Source of the DNA: Deltaproteobacteria bacterium CG03_land_8_20_14_0_80_45_14
GTDB taxonomy: Bacteria > Desulfobacterota > BSN033 > UBA1163
Length of the DNA: 34,434 nt
Assembly: GCA_002780715.1 (NCBI GenBank)
Contig: PEUO01000066.1
Span: 1 to 34,434 of the forward strand
Direction of reading: 5' to 3'
Part shown: positions 1 to 34,222 of the stretch, piece by piece
How the letters are laid out: the number at the start of each line of letters is the position of its first letter
How positions within the stretch are numbered: the stretch's first letter is position 1
Translations under genes and position numbers: made by a program
Notes under the pieces: generated by a model
Told to the model about the DNA's origin: nothing
The model's database searches: none
What the model saw: only the letters and a program-made list of their open reading frames with translations

Positions 1-3824
<3,824 letters not shown>

Positions 3825-5363: not shown

Positions 5364-6689
5364 ATGGATAAAGACAAAGAAAATATATTGAAGATGGCAA
5401 AGGAAAACGACGTCAAATTTATTCGGCTCTGGTTCACGGACATTCTGGGGATTTTAAAAGGGTTTGCCATCACCATCGATGAATTGGAGGGCGCTCTTGA
5501 AGAAGGAATGGGATTTGATGGCTCCTCCATTCAGGGCTATGCCCGCATCGATGAGAGCGATATGATCGCCAAACCTGATCCAAAAACCTTCCAGATCATT
5601 CCCTGGAGACCAAAAGAGAATGCTGTCGCTAGGATGTTTGCAGATATCTATGAACCCGATGGAACGCCATATAAAGGGGATCCCCGATGGGTGTTAAAAC
5701 GCACTCTTAAAAAAGCTGAAGAGCAGGGCTACACCCTTTACGTCGGTCCTGAGCTGGAGTACTTCTATTTCAAAGGCAATGATGGAACAGAGATACTTGA
5801 CAAAGGAGGCTATTTTGATCTTACTCCCCTTGACATGGCAACCGAGCTTCGACGGGAAACCATTTTAACTTTAGAAGCGATGGGAATTCATGTGGAATAC
5901 AGCCATCACGAAGTGGCTCCCAGCCAGCATGAAATTGACCTTCGCTATGCTGAAGCCCTGGCCATGGCAGACAATGCGATGACCTATCGACTCGTTGTTA
6001 AGGAAATTGCATTGAAGCATGGTGTCTATGCGACCTTCATGCCCAAACCCATTTTCAGTCAGAACGGAAGCGGGATGCACACCCACCAATCTCTTTTCAA
6101 GGGTGATAAGAATTCCTTCTTCGATCCAAAAGATGAATTCCATCTTTCCAAGATTGCCAAGTCTTATATGGCCGGAATCTTGAAACACTCCAAGGAAATT
6201 ACTTCCATCACCTCCCAATGGGTTAACTCTTATAAAAGGCTCGTCCCGGGCTACGAAGCGCCAGTCTATATTTCATGGGCTCGCAGGAATCGATCGGCGC
6301 TCGTTCGGGTTCCCATGTATAAGCCGGGAAAAGAGAAAGCCACACGGATGGAATTCCGGTCCCCTGACCCGGCCTGCAATCCCTATCTGGCATTTGCCGT
6401 AATGTTGGCGGCAGGCTTAAAGGGGATTGAAAAGGGTTATGAACTTCCTCCCCCTGTTGAAGAAGACATCTTTGAGATGTCCGAGGAGGCGAGGAAGAGA
6501 CACGGGATCGACTCTCTTCCAGGAAATTTGTTGGAAGCGATCCAGCTCACAGAGAAAAGTGAGCTGGTAAAGGAAACATTGGGAGATCACATCTTCCAAA
6601 AATTTATTGAGAATAAGAAGATCGAATGGGATCAATATCGAACCCATGTCTCCCAATTCGAATTGGAAAAATATCTCCCTATTTTATAG
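5364..6689 (+). CDS. glnA: Glutamine synthetase, type I-alpha
   Basis: Dodecameric cytosolic enzyme joining ammonium to glutamate with ATP. At 441 aa it has the length of the short (alpha) GSI class. Active-site motifs seen: DGSSIQGYARIDESDM (residues 52-67), GPELEYFYF, NGSGMHTHQSLF (ammonium and metal site), MEFRSPDPACNPYLAF. Arg61 in YARIDESDM corresponds to the Arg62 that mediates glutamine feedback inhibition in the Bacillus enzyme. The loop carrying the adenylylated Tyr in E. coli-type (beta) enzymes (NLYDLPPEE) is absent; the region reads LPPPVEEDIFEMSEEARKR instead. So it is probably feedback-inhibited rather than adenylylated. AGGAGG lies five bases before the ATG. Transcription is likely from the sigma-54 promoter at 5129 through a structured leader. 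The glutamate synthase-like fusion gene follows after 213 bases. Confidence 0.97.
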   Translation: MDKDKENILKMAKENDVKFIRLWFTDILGILKGFAITIDELEGALEEGMGFDGSSIQGYARIDESDMIAKPDPKTFQIIPWRPKENAVARMFADIYEPDGTPYKGDPRWVLKRTLKKAEEQGYTLYVGPELEYFYFKGNDGTEILDKGGYFDLTPLDMATELRRETILTLEAMGIHVEYSHHEVAPSQHEIDLRYAEALAMADNAMTYRLVVKEIALKHGVYATFMPKPIFSQNGSGMHTHQSLFKGDKNSFFDPKDEFHLSKIAKSYMAGILKHSKEITSITSQWVNSYKRLVPGYEAPVYISWARRNRSALVRVPMYKPGKEKATRMEFRSPDPACNPYLAFAVMLAAGLKGIEKGYELPPPVEEDIFEMSEEARKRHGIDSLPGNLLEAIQLTEKSELVKETLGDHIFQKFIENKKIEWDQYRTHVSQFELEKYLPIL

Positions 6690-6829: not shown

Positions 6830-6902
6830 CCTGAACCTATCATGGTACAGGGCGGGCATCTTTACCGTCACCTGTGGACTATAACATTTGAGGTTGATTA
6901 AA

Positions 6903-9900
6903 GTGAACCAGAAGAAACCTAAATTAACGTGGGTTAAATCTCTCGAAGCATTCTTGCATCGGAATCCTGACCTCAGGAAAATAGACAACCCAGAGAAACT
7001 CGAATATTACCGCAATGACCTCAACGTGGATCTCCCGCCCTTGATCCGTGACTTGATGCTAAAGAGTCTTCCCGATCTCATTTTCCAACCTGCCGCGGAA
7101 GAACACCTCCTGGAGATCTTCGCCTTTGCCCGTGAGCATAAAATCCCATTGACCGTCCGGGGGGCTGGAACGTGGGGATATGGCGGGGCCGTTCCTACCC
7201 GTGGAGGAATACTGATCGATCTCGGGTTAATGGACACAATTGAGGTCAATCCTGAAGCCCTCCAGTTGACAGTGGGTCCAGGGGCCCGTTTTCTCGATAT
7301 ACACCGGCAACTTGAATGCTACGGCCTTACCCTCCTCAGCATGACTTCCGGTAAGGGAGGAACCCTTATAGGCTGGATGGCTACGGGGGGCATGGGATTT
7401 GGCACCTTTCATCATGGCCCCGTCCGGAAACAGTTGATCTCTATCCGGGTGATCACACCCGAAGGAAAAGTTAAAGATCTAAAAGCAGAAGATCCAGAGA
7501 TCGGCAATTTTCTTTCCACGGAAGGCCAGATGGGAATTATCGTTAGCGCTACGCTCAAGGTTGGACAGCGTCCATTCCAATGGTTCCCATTTTTACTCCC
7601 CTTCGAAAAATCCTCCGCTGCCTATGCCTTTGCGAAGCAGCTTTCACGTCATCCCTCACCCAGGCCTCATGATCTGATCATCTACCATACCGAATTGACA
7701 CGCATCCTCAAGGCCCAATCAAATGGAAGGATGTCCGTTGAGCCCAAAAATCTGGTCTTAGTCGCCTTTTCCGAGAAAGAGCAAGCCCATGGGTTCAAGG
7801 CTTATCTTGAGGAACACGGAATTCAAACGGCGGATGAAGAATCCGCCCACACCCTCTGGGAAGAGCGGTTCCTTCCCATGTCCATCAAACAAATCGGACC
7901 TTCTCTACTGGCCGCGGAAGTGGTTCTCCCCCTGGATCAGGTGGCTTCATACTTCGAAAAGATCAGCGAATGGGGCAAGCACTTAGGCGTAACGTTTTAC
8001 CCTTCCTCTCATCTTATCAGCCAGGAGCAAGTGCTATTTCTTGCCATGATCACCTCTGATCATCGGAAGGCCATCTTTTACATAGACCTCATGCTCGTTC
8101 CCATGATGGTCAGGCTCGCTGTTCAGTTTTACCAAGGGAAACCCTATGGTTTGGGAATATGGAATACCCCCTTCCTGCGCGACCTCTATTCAAAGGAAGA
8201 ACTAAAAGAACTGATCCGATATAAGAAAAAAGTGGACCCATCTGGAATCCTCAATCCAGGAAAGTTCTTTGGCGTTTCAGGAAGACTGGGGCCTCTCCAA
8301 AAAATACTGTTTCACTCAGACATCTTTAATCTTGAACTCTCCGCAACGCAGTGGCTCCTTTTCAAACTGTTTTCCATCATTCCGGAGAAGACACTTCGTC
8401 AGCGTATACCCATCATTCCCCAAGGGCTTGAAGGGGTCTCAAAGGATATCCTGTCCTGTGCCCAATGTGGAAATTGCGTGTCTCGATGCCCTGTCTATCG
8501 TGCGACCAGGGATGAAACCTTCACGGCCAGGGGAAAGCTGCTCACCATGAAGAGGGCGCTGGAAACAAAAAAACTGGAGCTGTCGAAGGTTTTGCCTCTC
8601 TACTTCTGCCTTCACTGTGGCCGTTGTGATGAAGGATGTCAGGTCAACATAAAACATCGCCAACTTTACAATGATCTTGAGAAATATTTATCGGCTACCA
8701 TCGATTTCCCGATTCAGGAAGTGACGGACTTTATCCAGGAAGTGGAAAGGAGTCCCGAGTTTTACCGTTTCCTCGATGTGATCCGAACGGGTTTCGATCA
8801 AAAGATTCACGAACAACGTCAGACTTTCCCGAGATATCGCGTCCTCATTGACGAAGAGTATTGTCTTCATTGCGGGACCTGCGTGGATGCCTGCATGTAT
8901 AGCGTACGGAAGCGTGATGAGTCAGATCCCCGCCGTGTTGTGATCGCTGACGAAACGCTTTGCCGCGGCTGCGGGGCCTGTTTGGAACGCTGCCCCCAGA
9001 TTGCCGTTGGACTGCCAGCCACTTCGGTTGAACTCCATCCAGATTATCTCAGCATGGATGATCCATACTGGGGCAACGAGGTCATCGCACGGATCGACAT
9101 GGAGGCAACAACAGGCAAAATTCCTGTTTCCGGGACAGGTCAAGGAGACCCACATCGCGGCTCCGGTAATGACGGCATTCGCTTCGGTCACTTTCACATT
9201 GTAGGGCCTGCTCAAAACCTTCTCTACGAAAGCTCTGCAGATGCCATCGCCATTCAACTGGGTCAACGATCCAAGTATCTGAAGTTCAATGGAAAGAGAA
9301 TCGAGACTCCAGCCCCCCGCCTCATTGGATTAAAAACTCCCCTTACCCTCGATGTCCTGCCGATGGATGGAGGGGAAGATTTACTGGATGCCATGTTTGA
9401 AGCGGCCATCACGATGGGAACTCGTGTTACCCTCCGGTTGGAGGAAGTGGAAAGGTACAGATCGAAAATTGGGAATAGAATCAACTCCCTGATTCTTAGG
9501 CTGACGCCAGACGACTTAGAAAAGTGGCCTGAAGTGTCAAAGAATTATTCTCTCGATTTAATAGAAATCGAAGTGGATGAACCTGTTCTTGAGCAAGCCA
9601 ATGAATTAAGAGGTCTCTTTCCCGAATCAACGGTTCTCTGCGCCGTGATAAAAATTAGGAAGGAGGACGTGAATTCCGAGCTTCGGCCCTCCCCTGCCTT
9701 TCGGAATATGCTGGAATCTCTGTTCCAATCACCTTTTGATGTCCTCTGTCTTACCTCGAATTACGATCCGGAAAAAGGATATTACCCCACCACGGATGCA
9801 GTGCCTGCCGTGCATCGCTTTCTGGTCGAGAAGAAAGTCCGGCACCGGTTTTCCATCCTGGCGGCCGGTGGGATTCGGTCCGCTGCGGATTCACAGAAAA

Positions 9901-12900
9901 CTATCCAGCGAGGGGCCAACGGAATAAAGATCGATTGGCCTGTGCTGCTGACTTCCGATCCAATGGCGCGTCAAAAATTTCTGAGAGGGGAGCGGATCCA
10001 GTTCTCCTATGATCCGTCGGCATTGGCAAAACGGATTACTAATCTTATCCGGGTCTGGAATGTCCAGATCATCGAGGTGTTAGGGGCATCAGGTTTTAAA
10101 GATATCAAGAAGACGGTAGGGGAAGAAAACCGTCTTCTCATTTTCGACGACCTGGAGGAAAGGGTTTACGACCTCTCCAAAAACCGAGAGCGGTTGGAGC
10201 GAAACCGCCTGACTAACCTGTCGCGTATTCAACGGGAAGGAGCGGGCGATGGTTGGCGGTACAGTCAATTAAAAAATTTAATCAAACCAGCCCAGCCTCC
10301 CCATCGATTTTACAATTGTGATTTAAAGCCCTCCTGTTATCAAATCTTCGATCGCGATCATGTCTGGCCGGCCTCTCTCATTGCTTCCGTGGGTCGCATG
10401 GCAAGCGGGAATCCTGAAACGCTTCTTCTTGGCCATACCCAAGAACGCGGAAATTTGGGGGATGGTTTTGATTTTATCCAGGTCCTTTTCCAGCATAACC
10501 CTGACACCCTTCCGGAAGAAAATCTGGACCAAGTATCGACCGGGCTTCAGATGAACCCTAAATTAAGGCTGAAGGCGCCCTTTATTGGGGCGGGGATGTC
10601 AATTGGGTCCATCGGCCCCGGAACCTGGCGTGCCCGCGTACTGGCGACACGCGCCCTCGACACCCAAATGGACACTGGCGAAGGGGGATACCCGACCTTC
10701 TATATTCTCGACGCAAAATGGAATCCCATTGACCTGACCGAAACGCAGGTCCTCCTGCTCAGTCGAATAATGGAAGTTCGAAAGCTCATCCCCGTCGGGG
10801 AACTGATGAAAAAGGTCCAGGAGGAACTGGAGGAATCTCCTGAAATTGAGAAGATATTGGAGGCCCTCAAAAAATATCCTGCTTCCATGACCGTTCAGTT
10901 TGTCCCCATCGTTTTCCCCGAGGATGAACCTTATGTCGCCACCCAGCTCAAGACAGGGCTTTTCGGGGTAACCAAGGAGACGATCCGCAAGGCCCGTCGT
11001 GTGGTGATCGCTTACAGCCAGGGAGCAAAACAGGGTGTGGGCGGACATTTATTGGGGAGAAAAGTTTTTGGTCTTGTCTCGAGACTCCGTGGAGTGGCAG
11101 AAGGGGTCAGCCTTATCTCCCCTTTTCCATTTCATAATTGTTACTCCATCGAAGATGTCAAGGCATTCATCGATGCCGTGCGCATGATCAACCCACGGGC
11201 TTCCATCTGTATCAAGGTCTCACCATCACCGGATATCGAGTTTATCGTTTCCGGCCTTGCCCGGATCGCCAAGGATAACCAAATGGTCATTGAGGTCTGG
11301 CTGGACGGGCCTCGCGGAGGAACAGGCGCAGCCCCGGATATCATTAAAGGCCAGATGGGAATGCACATGGAGTATGCGATCCCCATCTGCCATGAAAAAT
11401 TGCTGGATGATGGGTTGAGGGATTACGTCGTCTTCCTGGGAAGCGGCGGATTTCGCACCTGGGGAGATGTGATTAAAGGGATGGCCATGGGGCTCGATGG
11501 CGTTGTCTTCGGGACAGCGGATCTCGTGGCGATCGGCTGCGTTCGGGATCGTAACTGCGAATCAGGGTGCCGGAGTGGTATTTCCACGATTGAACCGAAG
11601 ATGCAGTTGCTGCGTAATGTGGAATTAAATGCCCAGCAGATCATTAACTTTCGCGCCATTCTTCAAGCCCAGGCAGTCAGAGCCCTCGCCGCCCTGGGCA
11701 TGAAAGACATTCGGGAACTCCGGGGGCGGTATGACTTTATTGAATGGCCCGTGCTCGAAGAAAGGGTCAGGGATCGTCGCCGTCGCAGGGGAGAAATTTC
11801 ATTGACTGAACCTCTAAGAAAGCAAGAGCCTGGAGAACCTGCTCGGGTACAACTATCAACAATAGGACCTCATCCCGCCCCTTCGGATTGCGGGGTTGCG
11901 GCTATTGTATCCAACCATTTCATCCCGAGTCATGTAATGGATCTCATGCTGGATCGCATGGCTAACCGGGGTATGGATGGCGTGGGTATCTGGAAGGGAG
12001 GGTGCTATCCCCAACATATGGATCACTATGCCATTCATGTACTGGCCAAGGGTAAACTCCAATCGCAGGTCGAGCAGGAATACACGACCAGAGAACCAGA
12101 TATTGACCCTGAAGAGATACGAAGAAGGGCCAGGCAGATGACCTTGGCCACGCGCCGCCGTATCATGGAAGAAATTCTGGAACAGTATTTCAAAGGTCTT
12201 CAACTAGATGGATTTGATGGCGACATGGAGGAATGCCGCACTCCTTATCGACGAGATCAAGTAGGAAACGAACAGGATTTTCGATGCTTTGGCGAGAAGG
12301 ATCCAGGGGATGTCTTCCGATTCTTCGCACGGGTGAAACAGGAAGAGTTATATCGCTTTATAGAAAGCGAATTATTGAATGACCCTATCTGGCCGCCCCA
12401 GCAGATGCGTTATCAGAATCTGACCATTGAAAATTATAAAGAGAATACAGAATTTCTGCAGGAGGCTGAGGACGAGTACATCTATCGGCTGGCTCGCAGG
12501 ATCACACGAGAGAACTACGTGGAACATCAACAGAAGAAAGTAGCCGTGCTTTCTTGTGGGAAGAATTCCGGCTGTTGGAAAAGCGATGGTCGGCATATCC
12601 CTTGGGAACTCCCCGAAGCGCCGGTGAACATTATCCATCGCCGGCTGGCCACCGGCTCTGTGGTAGATCAGATGAACGCCCATCCTTTTGCCGAGCTACA
12701 TACCGCTTTGACCCATAATGGAGAAACAACGAATTATCGCACGATGCTCAACCGGGTGTCTCAATTCAACTTAACACCGCTGGCCCAAACTGACACAGCC
12801 GTCGCTTCTCTCAAGCTTCACCTGCTCAGCCAGTACCTCCATTATCCCTTCGATGCCCTGGTTGAATCCTTCTCCCCCACCACAGGATGGAACCTCGCCC

Positions 12901-14600
12901 AGTTGCCACCTGAAATCAGAGAACGTTTCGAACGCGTCCAGGAGGTGGAAATGGAAAGCGCTCCAGATGGTCCCTATCAGTATCTCTGCGGCCGCATTGA
13001 CCCTTATCACAGAGTGATTGAACGGTTGGATATTATCGATCCATCTTTGCTCCGACCTAATGTGGCCATGCTTTATGACGATGGAGAAAATTTCGTAAGC
13101 ATCATCTGTTCTGAGAAGCAAGGAAGCGATGCGGGGTTGGAGGAACTTTATCGCTTGGGATTGATGAAAAGCACGGTTTCTCCATTGACCTTCACGGTCA
13201 ACCCGGGCATGGTGAGCAGGGTGTTCTACGATGAGAAGGGAAAGATTACAGGTCACGAGGTCTTGGACAAATTCGGTCGAAAAATAAATATCCCCCACGG
13301 AACGTTTCCTTCTTCAGAAGGCCGGAGCCTTTCGCCTGTTTTATTTGAAGAGGTAAATTCTAAAAGCAATCCTTCATCAAGTATACGAAATCAACAGACC
13401 ATGGAAATTGGTAATCCCCTCTCACCCCCCTTTAGTCTCCGACCCGGAGCGGTCTCTGACCCGGAGGGCAACGGGGGGTTGGGGGGATTTGTACGTGATC
13501 ACCTCCCCGAATTAACTTTTGGTCAATTCAAGGCTGTACTGGAAGCAGTGACGAAAACTTTTCCGCCTTTGCAGGCGGTTGAGAAGCTGACCCAAATTCA
13601 TGACCATTTAGCCGGCTGGAATACCGGAGGAAAAGACAGAGGAGCTTTAATTCATATCGTACGCGAGCACATCAATTCGTTGCTGGATCGCATGAATGGT
13701 GGAAGCGGGATGCTCCGCGTTACGTTGGAGGACGCTGGAAAATTGAAACCACCGGAAGATACGAACCAGGCGCTAATAGTGGATGCCCGAGGATTTCAGC
13801 CTGAAGGAGTGGACCCTCTACGGGTGCTGAGCTGTTTCCTCGATCACGCACATCGGATGGGGTGGCGAAGATTCATCGTCTACAGAGTGGAAGGCCAACG
13901 TGGCATAGGGATGGGTATGGGCTCTGGGGACACCTCAGACACGAGCCTGGACGTTTATGGAAGCCCGGGTGAATATTGCGGCGCCTTCAATATGGGCGCC
14001 CTGGTGCGGATACACGGCCAGGCACAGAATTTTACCGGAATGGTCATGCATTCTGGCACACTGGAGATTCATGGTGATGTAGGCAAAGTGACGGGATACT
14101 CTGCAAAAGGAGGGACTTTCAATATTCTTGGCAATGTAGTAGACCGCGGGTGGGTCTGTGCGGTGAGCGATCCGAGAGGTCCTGGATTGCAGGTAAACAT
14201 CGTAGGCACTGCCTATGAACACCTCTGCCAGGCCTTCATGGGAGGGTCAGTGATCATGTTAGGGCTTTCCTGGGGGAATGATGGAATCCTCCATCGAATG
14301 GATTCCCCTTACCGTGGTGGAAAGATCTTGGCCGGCGCTTCCGCCGGGGAGATCCTCTTCTACGACCCCAAGGGTAGACTGGAAGAGGCCCAGTACAAAA
14401 GTTGTGCAGCACACCCGATCGACGACAAAAAGTGGGAAGAAATCATGGAACGTCTTATGAACCTGGAGAAAATCTTCGGTCTCGGTATCTCCAGGGAGAA
14501 CGGCCATCTCACAGCGATGATCGATGGACATCTGCAAACTCTCACCCCCAAGAGTTTTCGATGGATATTACCGAAGGGAGAACTGGAGGGCTACCACTAA
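6903..14600 (+). CDS. Giant fused glutamate synthase-like protein (FAD oxidase, Fe-S, FMN core, amidotransferase, GXGXG)
   Basis: About 2,565 aa, numbered from GTG 6903, which has TGAGG nine bases upstream; TTG at 6888 is a weaker alternative. Domains: GlcD-like FAD-binding oxidase (about 40-460, VRGAGTWGYGGAVPTRGG near 85); GlcF-like pair of Fe-S motifs (Cys519/522/525/529 and 569/572/575/579); ferredoxin module (Cys654/657/660/664 and 687/690/693/697); a poorly recognised stretch (about 720-1110) ending like a degenerate FMN-barrel end; FMN glutamate synthase core (about 1140-1635) with DGPRGGTGAAPDI and 3Fe-4S Cys1546/1552/1556; class II amidotransferase starting at Cys1663 (SDCGVAAI), with HRRLATG near 1912 and HNGE near 1938; low-complexity linker (2170-2196); GXGXG domain (about 2350-2500). 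Likely glutamine plus 2-oxoglutarate to two glutamates, with electrons entering by the FAD/Fe-S front end instead of GltD. No frameshift or stop is seen. Electron donor and true activity are inference. Confidence 0.85.
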   Translation: MNQKKPKLTWVKSLEAFLHRNPDLRKIDNPEKLEYYRNDLNVDLPPLIRDLMLKSLPDLIFQPAAEEHLLEIFAFAREHKIPLTVRGAGTWGYGGAVPTRGGILIDLGLMDTIEVNPEALQLTVGPGARFLDIHRQLECYGLTLLSMTSGKGGTLIGWMATGGMGFGTFHHGPVRKQLISIRVITPEGKVKDLKAEDPEIGNFLSTEGQMGIIVSATLKVGQRPFQWFPFLLPFEKSSAAYAFAKQLSRHPSPRPHDLIIYHTELTRILKAQSNGRMSVEPKNLVLVAFSEKEQAHGFKAYLEEHGIQTADEESAHTLWEERFLPMSIKQIGPSLLAAEVVLPLDQVASYFEKISEWGKHLGVTFYPSSHLISQEQVLFLAMITSDHRKAIFYIDLMLVPMMVRLAVQFYQGKPYGLGIWNTPFLRDLYSKEELKELIRYKKKVDPSGILNPGKFFGVSGRLGPLQKILFHSDIFNLELSATQWLLFKLFSIIPEKTLRQRIPIIPQGLEGVSKDILSCAQCGNCVSRCPVYRATRDETFTARGKLLTMKRALETKKLELSKVLPLYFCLHCGRCDEGCQVNIKHRQLYNDLEKYLSATIDFPIQEVTDFIQEVERSPEFYRFLDVIRTGFDQKIHEQRQTFPRYRVLIDEEYCLHCGTCVDACMYSVRKRDESDPRRVVIADETLCRGCGACLERCPQIAVGLPATSVELHPDYLSMDDPYWGNEVIARIDMEATTGKIPVSGTGQGDPHRGSGNDGIRFGHFHIVGPAQNLLYESSADAIAIQLGQRSKYLKFNGKRIETPAPRLIGLKTPLTLDVLPMDGGEDLLDAMFEAAITMGTRVTLRLEEVERYRSKIGNRINSLILRLTPDDLEKWPEVSKNYSLDLIEIEVDEPVLEQANELRGLFPESTVLCAVIKIRKEDVNSELRPSPAFRNMLESLFQSPFDVLCLTSNYDPEKGYYPTTDAVPAVHRFLVEKKVRHRFSILAAGGIRSAADSQKTIQRGANGIKIDWPVLLTSDPMARQKFLRGERIQFSYDPSALAKRITNLIRVWNVQIIEVLGASGFKDIKKTVGEENRLLIFDDLEERVYDLSKNRERLERNRLTNLSRIQREGAGDGWRYSQLKNLIKPAQPPHRFYNCDLKPSCYQIFDRDHVWPASLIASVGRMASGNPETLLLGHTQERGNLGDGFDFIQVLFQHNPDTLPEENLDQVSTGLQMNPKLRLKAPFIGAGMSIGSIGPGTWRARVLATRALDTQMDTGEGGYPTFYILDAKWNPIDLTETQVLLLSRIMEVRKLIPVGELMKKVQEELEESPEIEKILEALKKYPASMTVQFVPIVFPEDEPYVATQLKTGLFGVTKETIRKARRVVIAYSQGAKQGVGGHLLGRKVFGLVSRLRGVAEGVSLISPFPFHNCYSIEDVKAFIDAVRMINPRASICIKVSPSPDIEFIVSGLARIAKDNQMVIEVWLDGPRGGTGAAPDIIKGQMGMHMEYAIPICHEKLLDDGLRDYVVFLGSGGFRTWGDVIKGMAMGLDGVVFGTADLVAIGCVRDRNCESGCRSGISTIEPKMQLLRNVELNAQQIINFRAILQAQAVRALAALGMKDIRELRGRYDFIEWPVLEERVRDRRRRRGEISLTEPLRKQEPGEPARVQLSTIGPHPAPSDCGVAAIVSNHFIPSHVMDLMLDRMANRGMDGVGIWKGGCYPQHMDHYAIHVLAKGKLQSQVEQEYTTREPDIDPEEIRRRARQMTLATRRRIMEEILEQYFKGLQLDGFDGDMEECRTPYRRDQVGNEQDFRCFGEKDPGDVFRFFARVKQEELYRFIESELLNDPIWPPQQMRYQNLTIENYKENTEFLQEAEDEYIYRLARRITRENYVEHQQKKVAVLSCGKNSGCWKSDGRHIPWELPEAPVNIIHRRLATGSVVDQMNAHPFAELHTALTHNGETTNYRTMLNRVSQFNLTPLAQTDTAVASLKLHLLSQYLHYPFDALVESFSPTTGWNLAQLPPEIRERFERVQEVEMESAPDGPYQYLCGRIDPYHRVIERLDIIDPSLLRPNVAMLYDDGENFVSIICSEKQGSDAGLEELYRLGLMKSTVSPLTFTVNPGMVSRVFYDEKGKITGHEVLDKFGRKINIPHGTFPSSEGRSLSPVLFEEVNSKSNPSSSIRNQQTMEIGNPLSPPFSLRPGAVSDPEGNGGLGGFVRDHLPELTFGQFKAVLEAVTKTFPPLQAVEKLTQIHDHLAGWNTGGKDRGALIHIVREHINSLLDRMNGGSGMLRVTLEDAGKLKPPEDTNQALIVDARGFQPEGVDPLRVLSCFLDHAHRMGWRRFIVYRVEGQRGIGMGMGSGDTSDTSLDVYGSPGEYCGAFNMGALVRIHGQAQNFTGMVMHSGTLEIHGDVGKVTGYSAKGGTFNILGNVVDRGWVCAVSDPRGPGLQVNIVGTAYEHLCQAFMGGSVIMLGLSWGNDGILHRMDSPYRGGKILAGASAGEILFYDPKGRLEEAQYKSCAAHPIDDKKWEEIMERLMNLEKIFGLGISRENGHLTAMIDGHLQTLTPKSFRWILPKGELEGYH
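13413..13490. repeat. Intergenic-type inverted repeat embedded in coding sequence
   Basis: AATCCCCTCTCACCCCCC (13413-13430) and CGGGGGGTTGGGGGGATT (13472-13489) are imperfect reverse complements with two GACCCGGAG copies in between. The outer arms match the intergenic element at 27674-27718. It encodes the Pro/Gly-rich linker between the amidotransferase and GXGXG domains. Confidence 0.7.
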
Positions 14601-14981: not shown

Positions 14982-15094
14982 TGTTGCGGCAGCAATCGGA
15001 TCCCGTAACTGGGGAATTATACCATAAAATAAATTTTACTTGAAATCTCCGAAGAGACTTGGTATGATCCTAAAAAGACGGGGAGGTGGAGAAC

Positions 15095-15382
15095 ATGGCA
15101 GTGAGGATCATCATCGATCGAAAGGTGAAGAAGGGAAAAGAATCGGATTTTGCAAAAATGCTCAGGGAATTGAGATCCAAGGCAATTCCCTCGAAGGGTT
15201 ATATCTCAGGGGAAACGCTTCGGGCACAGGATGACCCTCATAACTATATTGTGATCACCACATGGCAAAGCGTTGAGGATTGGAAGCTGTGGGAAAAGAA
15301 TCCAGAGAGGAAAAAAATCCAGGCCAAAATTGAAAAACTAATGGCCAGGCCCACCAAGACAAAGATATACTTGTATGCCTAA
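15095..15382 (+). CDS. ABM-domain (antibiotic biosynthesis monooxygenase fold) protein
   Basis: 95-residue single-domain protein of the dimeric alpha/beta-barrel ABM superfamily. Seen: AVRIIIDRKVKKGKESDFAK at the start, RSKAIPSKGYISGETLR, then YIVITTWQSVEDWKLWEKNP, the typical Trp-rich strand-helix of the family. Members include small monooxygenases and haem-degrading proteins, but many have no known substrate and none can be assigned here. The ATG at 15095 is chosen because GGGAGG (15081-15086) lies eight bases before it. A GTG at 15086 would overlap that site. It stands alone, flanked by repeats, with a terminator about 235 bases downstream. Confidence 0.82.
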   Translation: MAVRIIIDRKVKKGKESDFAKMLRELRSKAIPSKGYISGETLRAQDDPHNYIVITTWQSVEDWKLWEKNPERKKIQAKIEKLMARPTKTKIYLYA

Positions 15383-15741: not shown

Positions 15742-16884
15742 ATGAAATCAAAACAAAAGGCCATATTGGCCTTAGAGGATGGGGCTGTATTCGAAGGATG
15801 GTCTTTCGGGTTTTTGGGAGAAAAGACAGGAGAAGTTGTTTTTAATACCAGCATGACCGGCTACCAGGAGATCCTCACCGATCCTTCCTACAAAGGTCAG
15901 ATCGTCACCATGACCTATCCCCTTATTGGAAACTATGGAATCAATGAAGAGGATATCGAATCCAAAGGACCGAAGGTAGAAGGGTTCATCGTCAAAGAGA
16001 ACAGCTCCATTTTCAGCAATTGGCGGGGAGATAAATCCCTCTCTGACTATTTGATCAATCACCGCATGATGGGGGTGGAGGGCATGGATACCCGGGCGAT
16101 CACCAAGCATATCCGCTTGGCGGGCGCCATGAAAGCTGTCCTCTCCGCGGAAGATCTCAACCGAGATCGCCTGATTGAAAAGGCCAAGACCTCCCCGGGT
16201 CTGATCGGCCGGGACTTGGTCAAAGAAGTGACCTGTGAGAAACCTTTCCCATGGACGAGTGGCAACGATTCTCAATTTTCCTATTCCAATCCTCAGTCCT
16301 TGACCTCCAAATCTCGTTTTAAGGTGGTCGCTCTGGACTATGGGGTCAAATATAATATCCTTCGTTCCCTTTGCGATTGGAACTGTGAGGTCACTGTTCT
16401 TCCCGCTTCCTCCGGAGCAGAATCCATTCTCTCCTATCACCCGGACGGAATTCTTTTATCCAATGGTCCAGGTGACCCCGAGGGAGTTCCCTATGCCATT
16501 GAAACGGTCCGCCAACTGATTGGGAAAAAACCGATCTTTGGAATCTGCCTGGGACACCAGCTTCTTGGATTAGCCCTTGGAGGAAGAACGTTTAAGTTGA
16601 AATTTGGCCATCGGGGAGCCAATCAACCTGTCAAAGATTTAAAAACGGGTAAGGTGATGATCACTTCCCAAAACCATGGGTTCTGTGTTGACCCTAATTC
16701 TTTGGATCCGGAAGAAGTCGAACTCACCCAGATTAATCTCAACGATCAAACCCTGGAGGGGATGAGGCACAAGCGATTTCCAATCTTTTCCGTTCAGTAT
16801 CACCCCGAAGCTTCTCCAGGGCCCCATGATACGCAGAATCTCTTCGGCGAGTTTATTAGGATGATGGAATTGAATTCAACATAA
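15742..16884 (+). CDS. carA: Carbamoyl phosphate synthase, small (glutaminase) subunit
   Basis: 380 aa, standard length. It hydrolyses glutamine and passes ammonia to CarB for carbamoyl phosphate, the precursor of pyrimidines and arginine. N-terminal CPSase domain: LEDGAVFEGWSFG, GEVVFNTSMTGYQEILTDPS, GVEGMDTRAIT. C-terminal class I amidotransferase with triad nucleophile Cys269 in GICLGHQ and His354/Glu356 in QYHPEASPGPHD. No strong Shine-Dalgarno is seen before the ATG at 15742, but the N-terminus aligns well with the family. carB follows after 159 bases, which include a dispersed repeat. A terminator and possible attenuator lie upstream. Confidence 0.97.
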   Translation: MKSKQKAILALEDGAVFEGWSFGFLGEKTGEVVFNTSMTGYQEILTDPSYKGQIVTMTYPLIGNYGINEEDIESKGPKVEGFIVKENSSIFSNWRGDKSLSDYLINHRMMGVEGMDTRAITKHIRLAGAMKAVLSAEDLNRDRLIEKAKTSPGLIGRDLVKEVTCEKPFPWTSGNDSQFSYSNPQSLTSKSRFKVVALDYGVKYNILRSLCDWNCEVTVLPASSGAESILSYHPDGILLSNGPGDPEGVPYAIETVRQLIGKKPIFGICLGHQLLGLALGGRTFKLKFGHRGANQPVKDLKTGKVMITSQNHGFCVDPNSLDPEEVELTQINLNDQTLEGMRHKRFPIFSVQYHPEASPGPHDTQNLFGEFIRMMELNST

Positions 16885-16901
16885 TGGGCAAAAGAGTCTT
16901 T

Positions 16902-16992
16902 TGGGTTAAGGTTAGGAAGCCCGTTTCGTTTTACGTCAAAGGGTTACGTCAAGTCCTTAAAACCAACGACCTAACCGAATAACTATACGGGC
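16902..16992. repeat. Dispersed intergenic repeat, copy B (between carA and carB)
   Basis: Shares GAAGCCCGTTTCGT, GTCAAAGGGTTACG and CTAACCGAATAACTATACGG with the copy at 6734-6829, in the same order and orientation. The ends can pair (GCCCGT with ACGGGC). Confidence 0.75.
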
Positions 16993-17043
16993 ATCGTTGC
17001 CGTTCCCGTTTTGACGAAATTTTTGTCTTATTGGAATAAGGTA

Positions 17044-20000
17044 ATGCCTAAGCGGACAGACATCAAAAGGATCCTGATCATCGGCTCCGGACCCATTGTG
17101 ATCAGTCAAGCCTGTGAATTTGACTACTCCGGCACTCAGGCCTGCAAAGCTTTGAAGGAAGAAGGATTTGAAATCGTGTTGGTGAATTCCAACCCCGCTA
17201 CGATCATGACCGACCCTGAGATGTCTGATCGGACTTACATCGAACCCATCACTCCAGAAATATTAGAAAAGATTATTGAAAGGGAAAGACCGGACGCCCT
17301 TCTCCCCACTTTAGGCGGTCAGACCGGCCTCAATGTTTCCGTCGCCCTTTATGAATCCGGAGTTCTTCAGAAATATGACGTTCAAATGATCGGGGCTAAA
17401 TATGAAGCCATCAAGAAAGGAGAAGATCGAAATCTCTTCAAGAAATCGATGAAGAAGATCGGCCTCGATCTTCCCAGAAGCGGATTGGCCTATTCTCTCT
17501 CTGAAGCATCGGGGGTGGCGAAGGAGATTGGTTTTCCTCTGATCATCCGGCCCAGTTTCACTCTGGGAGGGACAGGGGGTGGAGTGGCCTTCAATATTGA
17601 AGAATTCGAAGAGATAGCGGCTCGTGGACTGGAGTGGAGCATGACGGGTGAGATTCTGATTGAAGAGTCTGTTCTCGGTTGGAAGGAATTTGAACTGGAG
17701 GTGATGAGGGACCTCCATGACAATGTCGTCATCATCTGTTCCATTGAAAATTTTGATCCCATGGGCATCCATACGGGTGATAGCATCACCGTTGCCCCTG
17801 CTCAAACTTTGACCGACAAAGAATATCAGAGGATGAGAGACGGAGCGATTCGAGCCATTCGAGAAATTGGGGTGGAGACCGGAGGGTCTAACATCCAATT
17901 CGCGATCCGTCCTGAAGATGGACGAATGGTCATTATTGAGATGAACCCCAGGGTTTCGCGCTCTTCGGCCCTCGCCTCCAAAGCCACTGGATTCCCAATC
18001 GCCAAGATGGCAGCAAAGTTGGCGGTGGGATATACTCTCGACGAAATCCCCAACGACATTACGAAAAAAACGCCTGCCTGTTTTGAACCTACCATCGACT
18101 ATTGTGTGGTGAAGATTCCAAGATTCACTTTCGAAAAATTTCCTGGAGCAGATCCTACGCTGACCGTTTCGATGAAGTCAGTGGGTGAAACCATGGCGAT
18201 TGGCCGGACTTTCAAGGAAGCCCTTCAAAAAGGACTTCGCTCTTTGGAGATCGGAAGACACGGCCTGGGAGCGGATGGAAAGGATAAATTCCCCTTCCCC
18301 ACGGAGATATTGAATGAAGCCATGCGGTCCAACCTCCTTGAAGAGGTAAGGCAAAAGCTCTCGACACCGAATGCGGAAAGGATCTTTTATCTTCGACATG
18401 CTTTCCTCTTGGGGATGAAGGTGAAGGAGATCCACGAGCTGACGAAGATCGATCCCTGGTTTCTTACCAATATTCAAGAAATCACAGACCTTGAAAAGGA
18501 GATTCGCTCTTATGGAACGAAGGTGATGGACCTAGAACTCTGGAAAAAGACCTTGATTCCCGATCAACTTCAATTCCCAGAATCTCTTTTGAGAAAAGCA
18601 AAGGAGTTTGGTTTTTCTGACTGCCAACTGGGTTACCTGCTCGGTTTTGATGAAACCGCTCTCCGAAACATGCGAAAGGAGAAAGGAATTCTCCCCACTT
18701 ACAAACTGGTGGATACCTGTGGGGCGGAATTTGAAGCCTATACCCCTTATTACTATTCGACTTATGAAACAGAAGATGAATCCGAGGTTTCTTCGAGAAA
18801 AAAGATTATGATTTTAGGGGGAGGTCCCAATCGAATTGGCCAGGGGATCGAATTCGACTACTGCTGCGTCCATGCCTCCTTCGCCTTAAAAGAATTGGGT
18901 TATGAAACGATCATGGTAAACTCCAATCCGGAAACAGTTTCGACGGATTATGACACCTCTGATAAACTCTATTTCGAACCCCTTACCTTTGAAGATGTTT
19001 TCCATATCATCAATGTCGAAAAACCCGATGGAGTCATCGTCCAATTTGGAGGCCAAACCCCTCTCAATCTGGCTATTCCCTTGGAGAGGGGTGGAGTGAA
19101 AATTATTGGAACGACTCCTGACAATATCGATCGGGCTGAAGATCGAAAACGCTTTAAAACCCTTCTCAAGAAATTGGGTCTCATCCAACCATCAAATGGC
19201 ACTGCCAATTCGGTGGAGGAGGCGAGAAGGGTTGCGGAAGAGATTGGCTATCCGGTCGTCGTGAGGCCCTCTTACGTATTAGGGGGAAGGGCCATGGAGA
19301 TCGTTTACGATGAGGAAGCCTTAAAGGGTTTTGCTCGCCGCGCGGTGGAGGCTTCTTCCGAACATCCCATTCTCATCGACAAATTTTTAGAGGATGCCAT
19401 TGAAATTGATGTCGATGCTATTGCTGATGGAGAAGCTTGCGTCATCGCTGGAATCATGGAGCATATTGAAGAGGCCGGGATCCATTCTGGGGACAGCGCT
19501 TGTGTCACCCCTCCCTATTCCCTGACCGATGATTTGATCGAAGGGTTGAAACGAAACACCTATGCCTTAGCTAAGGAACTCCAGGTTGTTGGTTTGATGA
19601 ATATTCAATATGCGATCAAAAATGATAGCATCTATATTCTGGAAGTCAACCCAAGAGCCTCCAGAACTATTCCTTTCATCAGCAAAGCGACAGGAATTCC
19701 CTGGGCAAAAATGGCTGCCAAGGTGATGGCGGGGAAAAAGCTTCATGAATTGGGGATCCGGGGAGAGGTCGAAATCCACCATATCGCCGTAAAGGAATCG
19801 GTCTTTCCATTTAATCGTTTTTATGGGGTGGATACTGTGTTGGGTCCGGAAATGAAATCCACTGGAGAGGTGATGGGGATTGATACCGATTTCGGGATGG
19901 CCTTTGCAAAATCTCAAATTGGCGCCGGGCTCAACATCCCTCTTAAAGGAAAGGTCTTCATCAGCGTCATGAACAAATACAAACGGTCTATCGTCTTTCC

Positions 20001-20400
20001 CGCTAAGAAATTGGTTGATCTCGGATTTGAGATCGTGGCCACCAAAGGAACCGCTAAGGTCTTGGCCAACAATGGAATTCCTGTCAAAACTGTATTCAAG
20101 GTCGGTGAAGGCAGGCCGGATATTGTCGATCAAATTAAAAATGGAAAGATCAATCTGGTGATCAATACCCCAAGTGGAAAGAAACCCAAGGCAGATGAAG
20201 TAGCCATACGAAGCCAATCCGTAGCCCATAACATTCCCTGTATCACCACTCTCTCTGGCGCAGAGGCTGTCGTCAATGGCATTGAATCCTTGAAGAGAGG
20301 GATGTCTGTGAAGTCGATTCAGGAATATCATCGGGGGATTTCATCTTCTTCAACATCAACTGAAGCTATTTGCTTGGAAAGTGGAGCTTCCCGGATATGA
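17044..20400 (+). CDS. carB: Carbamoyl phosphate synthase, large subunit
   Basis: 1,118 aa from ATG 17044 ([20 protein letters not shown] is the canonical N-terminus). A TTG at 17011 would add 11 non-conserved residues. It makes carbamoyl phosphate from bicarbonate, two ATP and ammonia delivered by CarA. Order: N-terminal ATP-grasp half (about 1-400, with [17 protein letters not shown]), oligomerisation region, second ATP-grasp half beginning near [19 protein letters not shown] (with [18 protein letters not shown]), then the MGS-type allosteric domain from about residue 965 ([20 protein letters not shown]). It is roughly 40 residues longer than the typical 1,070-1,080 aa, partly from a Ser-rich C-terminal tail ([15 protein letters not shown]) of no known role. 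[12 protein letters not shown] replaces the usual GPIVIGQACEFD. Confidence 0.97.
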
Positions 20401-28480: not shown

Positions 28481-29347
28481 CTATTTTGTTAGCATTTCGT
28501 CTTTTGCCCTTAAAATTCTGCTGACAGAAGTAAAATGTATCCTTAAATGGTCGGCAACCTCCCTCTGAGTGTATCCATGTTCAAAGACTGCCTCGCCTAT
28601 GCTCTTGTCTCTTTTCCGTTTATCTCGAAGCACCTCCGATCTAAAAATGTCTCTCAAAGGAGGGCTGTTCATGAATCGCTGGCTCTTCGCTATCTCCGGA
28701 ATCTGTTTTCTTCCTCTCACATAGTCACGTAGGCTTTCTATGAAATCACCCTCCCCAAAAATACTCTGCGCCCTCACACTATTCCACATCGATTCAGCCC
28801 CAATTCCTTCCCTGACAAATCTCCTATAGCCAGCCTCTGCTACCTTCCTTTTGGAACCAAACTGGCTTAATACCCAATCTGTCTCAAGACATGGGCGCGG
28901 TTTCGTGCGTCCGCCTGTCCCCCCATAACTACTCCAGATCCAATCTTCAGGTCTCTGCACCTTTTTCGCACGGACCGGATTGAGTACCACATATCGGCAC
29001 GCCTCCAGAAGATGACTATCCTTCTGCACCAGAACTGCCTTAAACCTTCCTTGAAAGAGATGCCCTACCCTGCCATGCCGCTTATTGAATCTTTGGGTAT
29101 AGATACCGTTCAACTGCCGCATGCCTATCGAAAGATTTCCGTCGGGTGTATCAATGAGCAGATGGTAATGATTGCCCATCAGGCAGTAGGCGTGGCAGAG
29201 CCAATTGTATCGAAGGCTAACATCCTTAAGGGTATCCAAGAACATCTTTCGGTCCTGATCGTCTCTGAAAATTGCCTTTCTTTCGTTTCCTCTGCTCGTG
29301 ATGTGATAGACAGCACCTGGAAATTCTATACGCAACGGACGTGCCAT
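28481..29347 (-). CDS. REP-associated tyrosine transposase (RAYT, Y1_Tnp/HUH)
   Basis: 288 residues from ATG 29347 (MARPLRIEFPGAVYHITSRG, the typical RAYT start; AGGA six bases upstream). A TTG at 29365 is a weaker alternative. The HUH metal site is in CLMGNHYHLLIDTP and the nucleophilic Tyr is expected in CRYVVLNPVRAKKV. GRVGHLFQGRFKA is also a family mark. The C-terminus has a helix-turn-helix-like segment (YTQREVADHLRIHFTSVSRI). RAYTs cut and join single strands at palindromic REP sequences. The reading frame is intact, and the gene is flanked by inverted repeats. Confidence 0.93.
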   Translation of the reverse strand: MARPLRIEFPGAVYHITSRGNERKAIFRDDQDRKMFLDTLKDVSLRYNWLCHAYCLMGNHYHLLIDTPDGNLSIGMRQLNGIYTQRFNKRHGRVGHLFQGRFKAVLVQKDSHLLEACRYVVLNPVRAKKVQRPEDWIWSSYGGTGGRTKPRPCLETDWVLSQFGSKRKVAEAGYRRFVREGIGAESMWNSVRAQSIFGEGDFIESLRDYVRGRKQIPEIAKSQRFMNSPPLRDIFRSEVLRDKRKRDKSIGEAVFEHGYTQREVADHLRIHFTSVSRILRAKDEMLTK

Positions 29348-29376
29348 GGGTATCCTATACCGCAATAATAATGATT

Positions 29377-33061: not shown

Positions 33062-34222
33062 GTGATATTTTCTGTCCTCCTAATGGATAAAGAAACTTCT
33101 CTTTTGAAAGTACTAAAAGAATTCACAACGGTCACTTCCACAGGATACCGGGAAATAGTTCCTTTTCTCCCCAAGGACCGGGCGCCAATTGGTTTTTTCT
33201 GTCCTTATGTTCCGGAAGAACTCATCCATGCGGCTGGGGCTCTTCCCTTCCGTCTTATGGGCACACCCATTAAGATGTCCCGTGTCCAGGCCCATCTTCC
33301 CCCTCACTGCTGCCATTTAGTAAAATCTTCCCTTGAAAGTTTACTCCAGGGGGAGCTCGATTTCTTGAAGGGAATTATTTTCAGCCATACCTGTGACTCC
33401 ATGCAAGGGCTTGCAGATATCTGGGCTCTTCAGAGACGTACTCCTCTTCAATTCAATTTAATGATGCCCTCACATTTAGATTCCGAACTTTCCCGTACTT
33501 TCTTAAAAGCAGAGATAGAGCGATTTAAGACCTTTCTGGAATCCAATGTGGGAAAGATTACTCCCCAATGTCTCAATGCCTCCATCCAGCTTTTTAATCG
33601 TATAAGGGAAAAACTTCAAGAGATTTACATCCACAGAATAAAATGGCATGCCCAAATCTCTGGGAGTGATTTTGCCCGGATCATTCGAGCAGGATGCCTG
33701 ATAGATCGTGAGCGATACATCGAACTTTTGAACGATTTATTGAATGCATTACCTGAAAAAACAGAAGAGAGCGAAAATGTAGTTCCTATTTTTCTTGCGG
33801 GGAATATGACCCATTCTGACTTCTATTTCTCTTTAATCGAAGAGACGGGCGCCATCGTGGTCCAGGATGATCTCTGCAGTGGAGCGCGATTTCTCCGCCT
33901 CATAGTACAGGAAGATATCGATCCAATCGAGGGCCTCGCCAATCGTTACTTTACATCCTTTTTGTGTCCAACCAAATATAAAGGGGCTCATGCCCATATA
34001 GAGACTCTTCTAAAAGAGGTTCAAAAATCTGGGGCGAAGGGGGTCATCTTCCTTCTTTACAAATATTGTGAAACCCATTTTTTCGACTATCCGGATTTGA
34101 AACAGGCTCTCGAATCGAAAGGGATCCCAACGCTTCTTCTTGAAGTGGAAGACCCGTCCTACTCTATTGGACAACTGAAGATTCGGGTTCAGGCTTTTGT
34201 GGAGATGCTCAGTCCGATTTGA
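33062..34222 (+). CDS. 2-hydroxyacyl-CoA dehydratase subunit-like protein (HgdB/BcrC/BadD family)
   Basis: 386 residues from GTG 33062 (ATG 33083 is an alternative; neither has a good ribosome site). Family signatures: FFCPYVPEELIHAAGALPFRL at residues 46-66 (starting with Cys47 region), Cys83-Cys84 in PHCCHLVKSSL, Cys111 in FSHTCDSMQG, later DDLCSGARF and KYCETHFFDYP. The cysteines would hold a [4Fe-4S] cluster. Relatives dehydrate 2-hydroxyacyl-CoA or reduce aromatic CoA rings and need an ATP-dependent activase and a second subunit. Neither is seen in the window, so this may be a stand-alone member of unknown substrate. Next to nothing functional upstream. Confidence 0.85.
   Translation: MIFSVLLMDKETSLLKVLKEFTTVTSTGYREIVPFLPKDRAPIGFFCPYVPEELIHAAGALPFRLMGTPIKMSRVQAHLPPHCCHLVKSSLESLLQGELDFLKGIIFSHTCDSMQGLADIWALQRRTPLQFNLMMPSHLDSELSRTFLKAEIERFKTFLESNVGKITPQCLNASIQLFNRIREKLQEIYIHRIKWHAQISGSDFARIIRAGCLIDRERYIELLNDLLNALPEKTEESENVVPIFLAGNMTHSDFYFSLIEETGAIVVQDDLCSGARFLRLIVQEDIDPIEGLANRYFTSFLCPTKYKGAHAHIETLLKEVQKSGAKGVIFLLYKYCETHFFDYPDLKQALESKGIPTLLLEVEDPSYSIGQLKIRVQAFVEMLSPI

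Follow-up and report, generated by a model that had tools for sequence, protein, structure and literature searches.

What donates electrons to a glutamate synthase that is encoded in a single gene with a flavin and iron-sulfur module of its own, and with no GltD nearby? Glutamate synthase (GOGAT) is one of the main routes by which nitrogen from ammonia reaches amino acids. Its accepted electron donors are NADPH, NADH, and ferredoxin, and F420H2 has been proposed. The question is raised by a stretch of DNA of 34,434 nucleotides (the window), which contains the following genes:

6903..14600, + strand: complete gene of the fused glutamate synthase (2565 aa with GTG 6903 as start, 2570 aa with TTG 6888)
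87..863, + strand: amt, ammonium transporter (part)
1251..3824, + strand: glnD-like uridylyltransferase
5364..6689, + strand: glnA, glutamine synthetase
15742..20400, + strand: carA and carB, glutamine-using carbamoyl-phosphate synthase

The reading frame is open from TTG 6888 to 14600 without interruption (2570 aa), and residues are numbered here from TTG 6888 in this 2570-aa frame. GTG 6903 is a better start than TTG 6888, because GAGG is positioned 9 nt upstream of it and relatives have a Met at about the same place. The Pfam domains follow one another in the order FAD_binding_4, FAD-oxidase_C, Fer4_8, a pair of Fer4, Glu_synthase, GATase_6, and GXGXG. An earlier note on this DNA had described an uninterrupted frame from 6903 to 14600 with an FAD-linked oxidase, cysteine-rich motifs, a glutamate synthase core, an amidotransferase, and a GXGXG domain, and both the open frame and the Pfam matches confirm it.

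The domains of the fusion are separate genes in other lineages, which would be expected if an assembly or annotation artefact had united separate genes. However, 15 of the 17 same-family genomes contain the fusion, and 11 of the 15 carriers have it as one frame of more than 2,500 aa (2531–2571 codons) in separate assemblies. Calditrichota-type genomes, too, have an intact fusion in one gene. The assembly join, which the earlier note had named as evidence against its reading, is rejected because the same one-frame fusion recurs across the family, and we give an artefact practically no weight. The same-family fusions are 66–82% identical, and the fusion was also found in one genome from a different family of the same phylum (G047). 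The domains are under purifying selection, with dN/dS of 0.03–0.16 where synonymous change is unsaturated, whereas the linkers are poorly conserved. Three genomes (G001, G005, and G010) have a broken frame, with the break at a different place in each, and the break in G001 contains an ambiguous base. The fusion of G015 runs off its contig.

Upstream of the fusion are amt, the glnD-like gene, and glnA, and downstream are carA and carB. The position directly after glnA had been taken to indicate a GOGAT role, and the glnA context recurs in relatives. The neighbors that recur across loci encode glutamine synthetase of type I or III, carAB, amt, guaA, purF, and hisHA. These recurrent neighbors, for the most part genes of nitrogen and glutamine metabolism, were searched for a hint of the donor, and none could be read from them. 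The window also contains a HicB-family gene (PF05534; 4285–4858, − strand) between glnD and glnA, overlapped by an 86-aa frame that has a HicA-type look by eye and no Pfam match. A 98-aa protein with an ABM domain (monooxygenase-like; 15086–15382, + strand) is encoded between the fusion and carA. Further away are an IS200-like (Y1) transposase (28481–29365, − strand) and, at a distance of 18 kb, a gene of the 2-hydroxyglutaryl-CoA dehydratase D-component family (33062–34222, + strand), with no evidence of a tie to the fusion.

The segments of the gene that correspond to a GOGAT follow the iron-sulfur domains:

9024..10217, + strand: GOGAT central-type (second Glu_synthase-like) barrel, residues 713–1110 (weak PF01645 match, profiles)
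10536..11702, + strand: Glu_synthase FMN domain, residues 1217–1605 (PF01645, 254.9 bits; aligned to 1ea0/2vdc)
11538..11570, + strand: [3Fe-4S] Cys 1551, 1557, and 1561 (invariant; aligned to the corresponding three cysteines of GltB 1ea0)
11808..11888, + strand: fast-evolving linker (17–50% identity among relatives; conserved S-D just before Cys1668)
11889..11891, + strand: codon of Cys1668, predicted to be the amidotransferase nucleophile and, once the chain is cut, the N-terminus of the second chain
11889..13337, + strand: class II glutamine amidotransferase domain, residues 1668–2150 (GATase_6, conserved motifs)
13935..14429, + strand: GXGXG beta-helix domain, residues 2350–2514 (Pfam)

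The central barrel is matched by profiles to the separate Fd-central genes of relatives. The seven best Foldseek matches of residues 641–1640 are all GltB structures; the underlying AF2 model is weak (pLDDT 69.6, pTM 0.56) and serves as evidence of fold only. The [3Fe-4S] cysteines of the fusion have the spacing CX5CX3C instead of CX5CX4C, and a second ferredoxin domain, present in the separate FMN subunit, is missing from the fusion. The domains of GltB are ordered amidotransferase, central, FMN, and GXGXG. The order in the fusion is permuted relative to it: central, FMN, amidotransferase, and GXGXG. The FMN/[3Fe-4S] core, the amidotransferase, and the GXGXG domain that had been recognized earlier are thus all present, but the additional central barrel, the permuted order, and the internal position of the amidotransferase cysteine had been missed. 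In genome G000, the fusion is the sole strong Glu_synthase match. A second, short Glu_synthase-like protein of 559 aa (L040:1467-3146, G000:C16; 58.9 bits) is encoded in the same genome between GAF-domain-like and two-component-type genes, and counterparts of about 530–560 aa are present in many relatives.

The amidotransferase domain is strongly diverged. Its GATase_6 match (residues 1901–1972) scores 26.9 bits, just below the 27-bit Pfam cut-off, and a sequence profile of the domain did not reach the GltB chains of the PDB. Nevertheless, Cys1668, R1919, N1944-G1945, and D1969 are conserved, and the positions of the catalytic motifs are invariant. Class II amidotransferases require the catalytic cysteine at the N-terminus. 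Since Cys1668 is internal, a cut before this residue is predicted, which would turn the fusion into two mature chains. In separate amidotransferase subunits the cysteine follows a propeptide that ends in (E)GG and is mostly 12–50 residues long, lengths that rest on a mechanical choice of start. The fusions have a variable linker before the cysteine, which ends in S-D in the clade of the window and S-N in the Calditrichota type. An internal translation start at Cys1668 was considered and rejected, because the preceding codon encodes Asp and there is no start codon directly before the cysteine.

No gltD was seen in the window or in the operons, as the earlier note had observed for the neighborhood of the gene. 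None of the 26 genomes contains a match to TIGR01317 over the cut-off, and since most are MAGs and G000 is 86.6% complete, the absence is not absolute. The best matches reach 270–277 bits, compared to the cut-off of 447.7 bits, and were rejected as a hidden GltD: they are NfnB, and NfnA adjoins the gene in G000 and in the four relatives checked. Members of the phylum that have the core without the FAD gene commonly have MvhD (FlpD) in front of Fd-central, often together with MetV and MetF, and other FAD-less core clusters include HdrA or HdrABC. Because these other redox modules stand elsewhere in the position of the FAD/Fe-S part, that part of the fusion is read as an electron input. In the loci L121–L134, which lack the FAD module, the three-gene GOGAT core follows MvhD, often with MetV/MetF, or is accompanied by HdrA/HdrABC. 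It is possible that these are GOGATs linked to HdrA-type electron bifurcation or to methylene-THF reductase, an arrangement for which no description was found.

The putative input module forms the N-terminal part of the protein:

7071..7481, + strand: FAD-binding domain (PCMH/FAD_binding_4), residues 62–198 (Pfam, AF2, Foldseek)
7596..8264, + strand: FAD-oxidase_C substrate domain, residues 237–459 (Pfam, alignment)
8457..8639, + strand: GlcF/LutB-type 2x[4Fe-4S] dicluster, Cys524–584 (Fer4_8 at 522–588, Pfam)
8838..8999, + strand: second 2x[4Fe-4S] ferredoxin domain, Cys659–702 (Fer4 pair at 651–704, Pfam)

Four cysteine-rich 4Fe-4S motifs had been noticed in the sequence, and they are present as CxxCxxCxxxC at residues 524–534, 574–584, 659–669, and 692–702. 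All eight cysteines of the dicluster are invariant in the 75 sequences that cover the region. The description of this part as GlcF-like holds for the N-terminal dicluster, but Pfam detects no CCG domain in the fusion. The AF2 model of residues 1–640 (pLDDT 86.8, pTM 0.87) has mouse LDHD (TM 0.82–0.84 over target), LctD, AGPS, and isopod D-LDH as its best Foldseek matches, and the modeled structure confirms a D-lactate dehydrogenase fold for the FAD domain.

We consider it likely that the protein is a glutamate synthase in which this dedicated FAD/Fe-S module replaces GltD. The proposal of a GOGAT with its own electron module is supported by the domains, the conserved residues, and the co-conservation of the module with the core. 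The enzyme activity, the direction of electron flow, and the cleavage are inferred from sequence. A reductant would reduce the FAD of the D-lactate-dehydrogenase-fold domain, and electrons would pass from the FAD through the two [4Fe-4S] clusters of the dicluster and the two of the second ferredoxin domain to the [3Fe-4S] cluster and the FMN. The amidotransferase would hydrolyze glutamine, and the ammonia would be channeled to the FMN site, where 2-oxoglutarate would be aminated and reduced to yield two glutamates. The cut before Cys1668 would separate an electron/FMN chain (residues 1–1667) from an amidotransferase/GXGXG chain (1668–2570).

The substrate site of the module bears on the identity of the reductant. 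The closest solved sequences to the module are LctD, LDHD, and glycolate/D-lactate oxidases, and together with the fold they suggest that the module could be a true D-2-hydroxyacid dehydrogenase (for lactate, glycolate, or 2-hydroxyglutarate) that feeds the GOGAT. Such a GOGAT is thermodynamically allowed. If D-2-hydroxyglutarate were the donor, the 2-oxoglutarate substrate would be produced too. In mLDHD, the Mn ion is held by His398, His405, and Glu442, the substrate carboxylate is bound by Arg347, and the enzyme, which needs the metal, is inactive after EDTA treatment (PMC10589216). A profile alignment places these residues at H375, V382, P419, and R327 of the fusion, respectively. Arg327 is invariant in 76 of 76 homologs, in agreement with a hydroxyacid as the substrate. 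However, two of the three metal ligands, at the V382 and P419 positions, are replaced in all 76; no homolog has His at the position of V382. H375 is His in the fusion clade of the window and in some other homologs, and Tyr, Gln, Thr, or another residue in many. Pro419-Tyr420, in which Tyr420 corresponds to the neighboring mLDHD His443 so that an EH motif is changed to Pro-Tyr, is likewise invariant (76/76). The invariant residues of FAD-oxidase_C are W324, R327, E344, P419-Y420, G423, and W425. The site therefore retains the carboxylate-binding arginine and a conserved pocket of its own (W324, E344, Y420, and W425), without the metal site. The kept arginine and pocket favor a real small-molecule substrate, whereas the loss of the metal site disfavors the standard hydroxyacid mechanism. 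The hydroxyacid donor of the earlier note is thereby weakened, and we consider it unlikely. A small carboxylate-bearing reductant that does not react by the metal-dependent hydroxyacid mechanism would fit Arg327 best.

Two other sources of electrons have to be weighed against such a small reductant. The module occupies the place of GltD, and NADPH is used by other members of the FAD_binding_4 family, for example MurB; the module could be a functional GltD of another fold that takes electrons from NADH, NADPH, or F420H2. There are proposals of F420H2-dependent GOGATs whose input subunit is of another kind (PMC3448663, PMC9012536). Yet Pfam detects neither a Rossmann nor an FrhB-type domain in the protein, the module is present in lineages with very different carriers, and the invariant pocket residues look like a small-molecule site, which makes a nucleotide donor improbable. 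The cluster-rich architecture could instead indicate that reduced ferredoxin feeds the four clusters directly, with the FAD as a second branch through which electrons leave or are confurcated, in the manner of lactate dehydrogenase/Etf. By profile, the closest solved relative is LctD, from the confurcating Ldh-EtfAB complex, and the sister core associates with HdrA/MvhD. However, EtfAB is absent among the recurrent neighbor families examined, and the gene encodes one FAD only and no bifurcating flavoprotein family. We regard feeding by ferredoxin as quite improbable.

With the FAD module alone as the query, 80 loci were retrieved; the search was built on conserved motifs of the module, so the figures describe that subfamily. 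The module is fused to the core in 18 loci, has the core next door in 52, and is without a GOGAT in three (L110–L112). The remaining seven (L057, L082, L091, L095, L101, L108, and L118) were set aside with the FAD gene at or near a contig end; L082, which has a separate frame of 1544 aa, was counted as unresolved. Downstream DNA is thus readable at 73 loci, and at 70 of them the GOGAT core comes directly after the FAD module. In other lineages, four colinear genes of one operon encode these domains as FAD-FeS (about 620 aa), Fd-central (about 470 aa), Fd-FMN (about 493 aa), and GATase-GXGXG (about 875 aa), and the operon often has glutamine genes as neighbors. The carriers include Syntrophus, Smithella, Syntrophomonas, Dehalococcoidia, Opitutia, Aminicenantes, Brocadiaceae, and others, as well as Methanophagales (ANME-1), Methanocellales, and Thermoplasmata. 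Relatives with only separate genes and an intact gltD had been named earlier as evidence against the proposal: separate genes do exist, but they form colinear operons led by the FAD gene, and no gltD was seen.

A partial fusion, in which Fd-central and Fd-FMN form one frame of 963–969 aa and FAD and GATase are separate, occurs in L081, L090, and L109, from Aminicenantes, Acidobacteriota, and Elusimicrobia. The homologs without a GOGAT link in L110–L112 consist of an FAD protein of 481–487 aa and a GlcF of about 390 aa, and the CCG domains were confirmed in the GlcF of L112. Two of these loci are near lipoate ligase genes, and L112 is near genes for RACo, a radical SAM protein, and an MtmB-like methyltransferase; the neighborhoods of L110–L112 give no clear hint of the donor.

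The Calditrichota-type fusions (L120, 2890 aa; L114, 2162 aa and cut by the contig end) are joined with the clade of the window on one side of a branch in both trees, one built from the cores of 66 loci and the other from the FAD modules of 79. The fused clade has SH-aLRT support of 100 in the core tree and 98 in the FAD tree, with long branches flagged. Two independent fusions are therefore unsupported, and one old fusion or transfer is the simpler explanation. The evidence for a single origin is good, but not final.

In comparison to known systems, the fusion shares with the NADPH-GOGAT GltBD of Azospirillum brasilense (1ea0/2vdc) the alignable FMN barrel and [3Fe-4S] cysteines, the central domain, the class II amidotransferase, and the GXGXG domain. 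It differs in the lack of GltD, the fused FAD/Fe-S input, the amidotransferase positioned after the FMN domain, and an extra ferredoxin domain. Ferredoxin-dependent GOGATs (1llw, 1ofd) have a homologous FMN core and no GltD either, whereas in the fusion an FAD module and ferredoxin-like domains are part of the protein itself. The F420H2-dependent GOGAT (FGltS) of methanogens and ANME, proposed from genomes and not proven (PMC3448663, PMC9012536), also combines a GOGAT core with an alternative dedicated input subunit. However, that subunit is FrhB/Fsr-N-like and not of the D-LDH family, and the fusion has no such Pfam domain. LDHD, LctD, and GlcD resemble the module in fold (TM about 0.8 over target), FAD domain, and the arginine for the substrate carboxylate, but the fusion has lost two of the three metal ligands, with EH changed to Pro-Tyr, and the known enzymes have no GOGAT association. 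The Fe-S partners of GlcF/LutB/YdiJ type have the same N-terminal 2x[4Fe-4S] dicluster, and differ in the CCG domains that the fusion lacks.

The statement that no enzyme of this architecture has been described stands for open PMC articles, to which the search extended. The concept of an alternative-input GOGAT, in contrast, has already been published for F420 (PMC3448663, PMC9012536). What is without a description in the open PMC literature is the D-LDH-family module, its wide operonic spread, and the one-gene form. It is possible, although we advance it only tentatively, that these enzymes constitute a new class of GOGAT in syntrophic bacteria, Chloroflexi, and ANME-1-type archaea, in which a small carboxylate, and not NAD(P)H, ferredoxin, or F420H2, donates electrons through a metal-free flavoprotein of the D-LDH fold. 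The class would include a self-cleaving polyprotein in one clade, and its core would be a platform with interchangeable modules (FAD/Fe-S or MvhD-MetVF/HdrA).

A further kind of dedicated input module that is retained in organisms ranging from Syntrophus and Smithella to ANME-1 archaea would mean that nitrogen assimilation in energy-limited anaerobes is probably mis-modeled in current reconstructions. The fusion adds the testable prediction of an internal maturation of the 2,565-aa chain, and the module makes it testable which metabolite pays for glutamate in these anaerobes.
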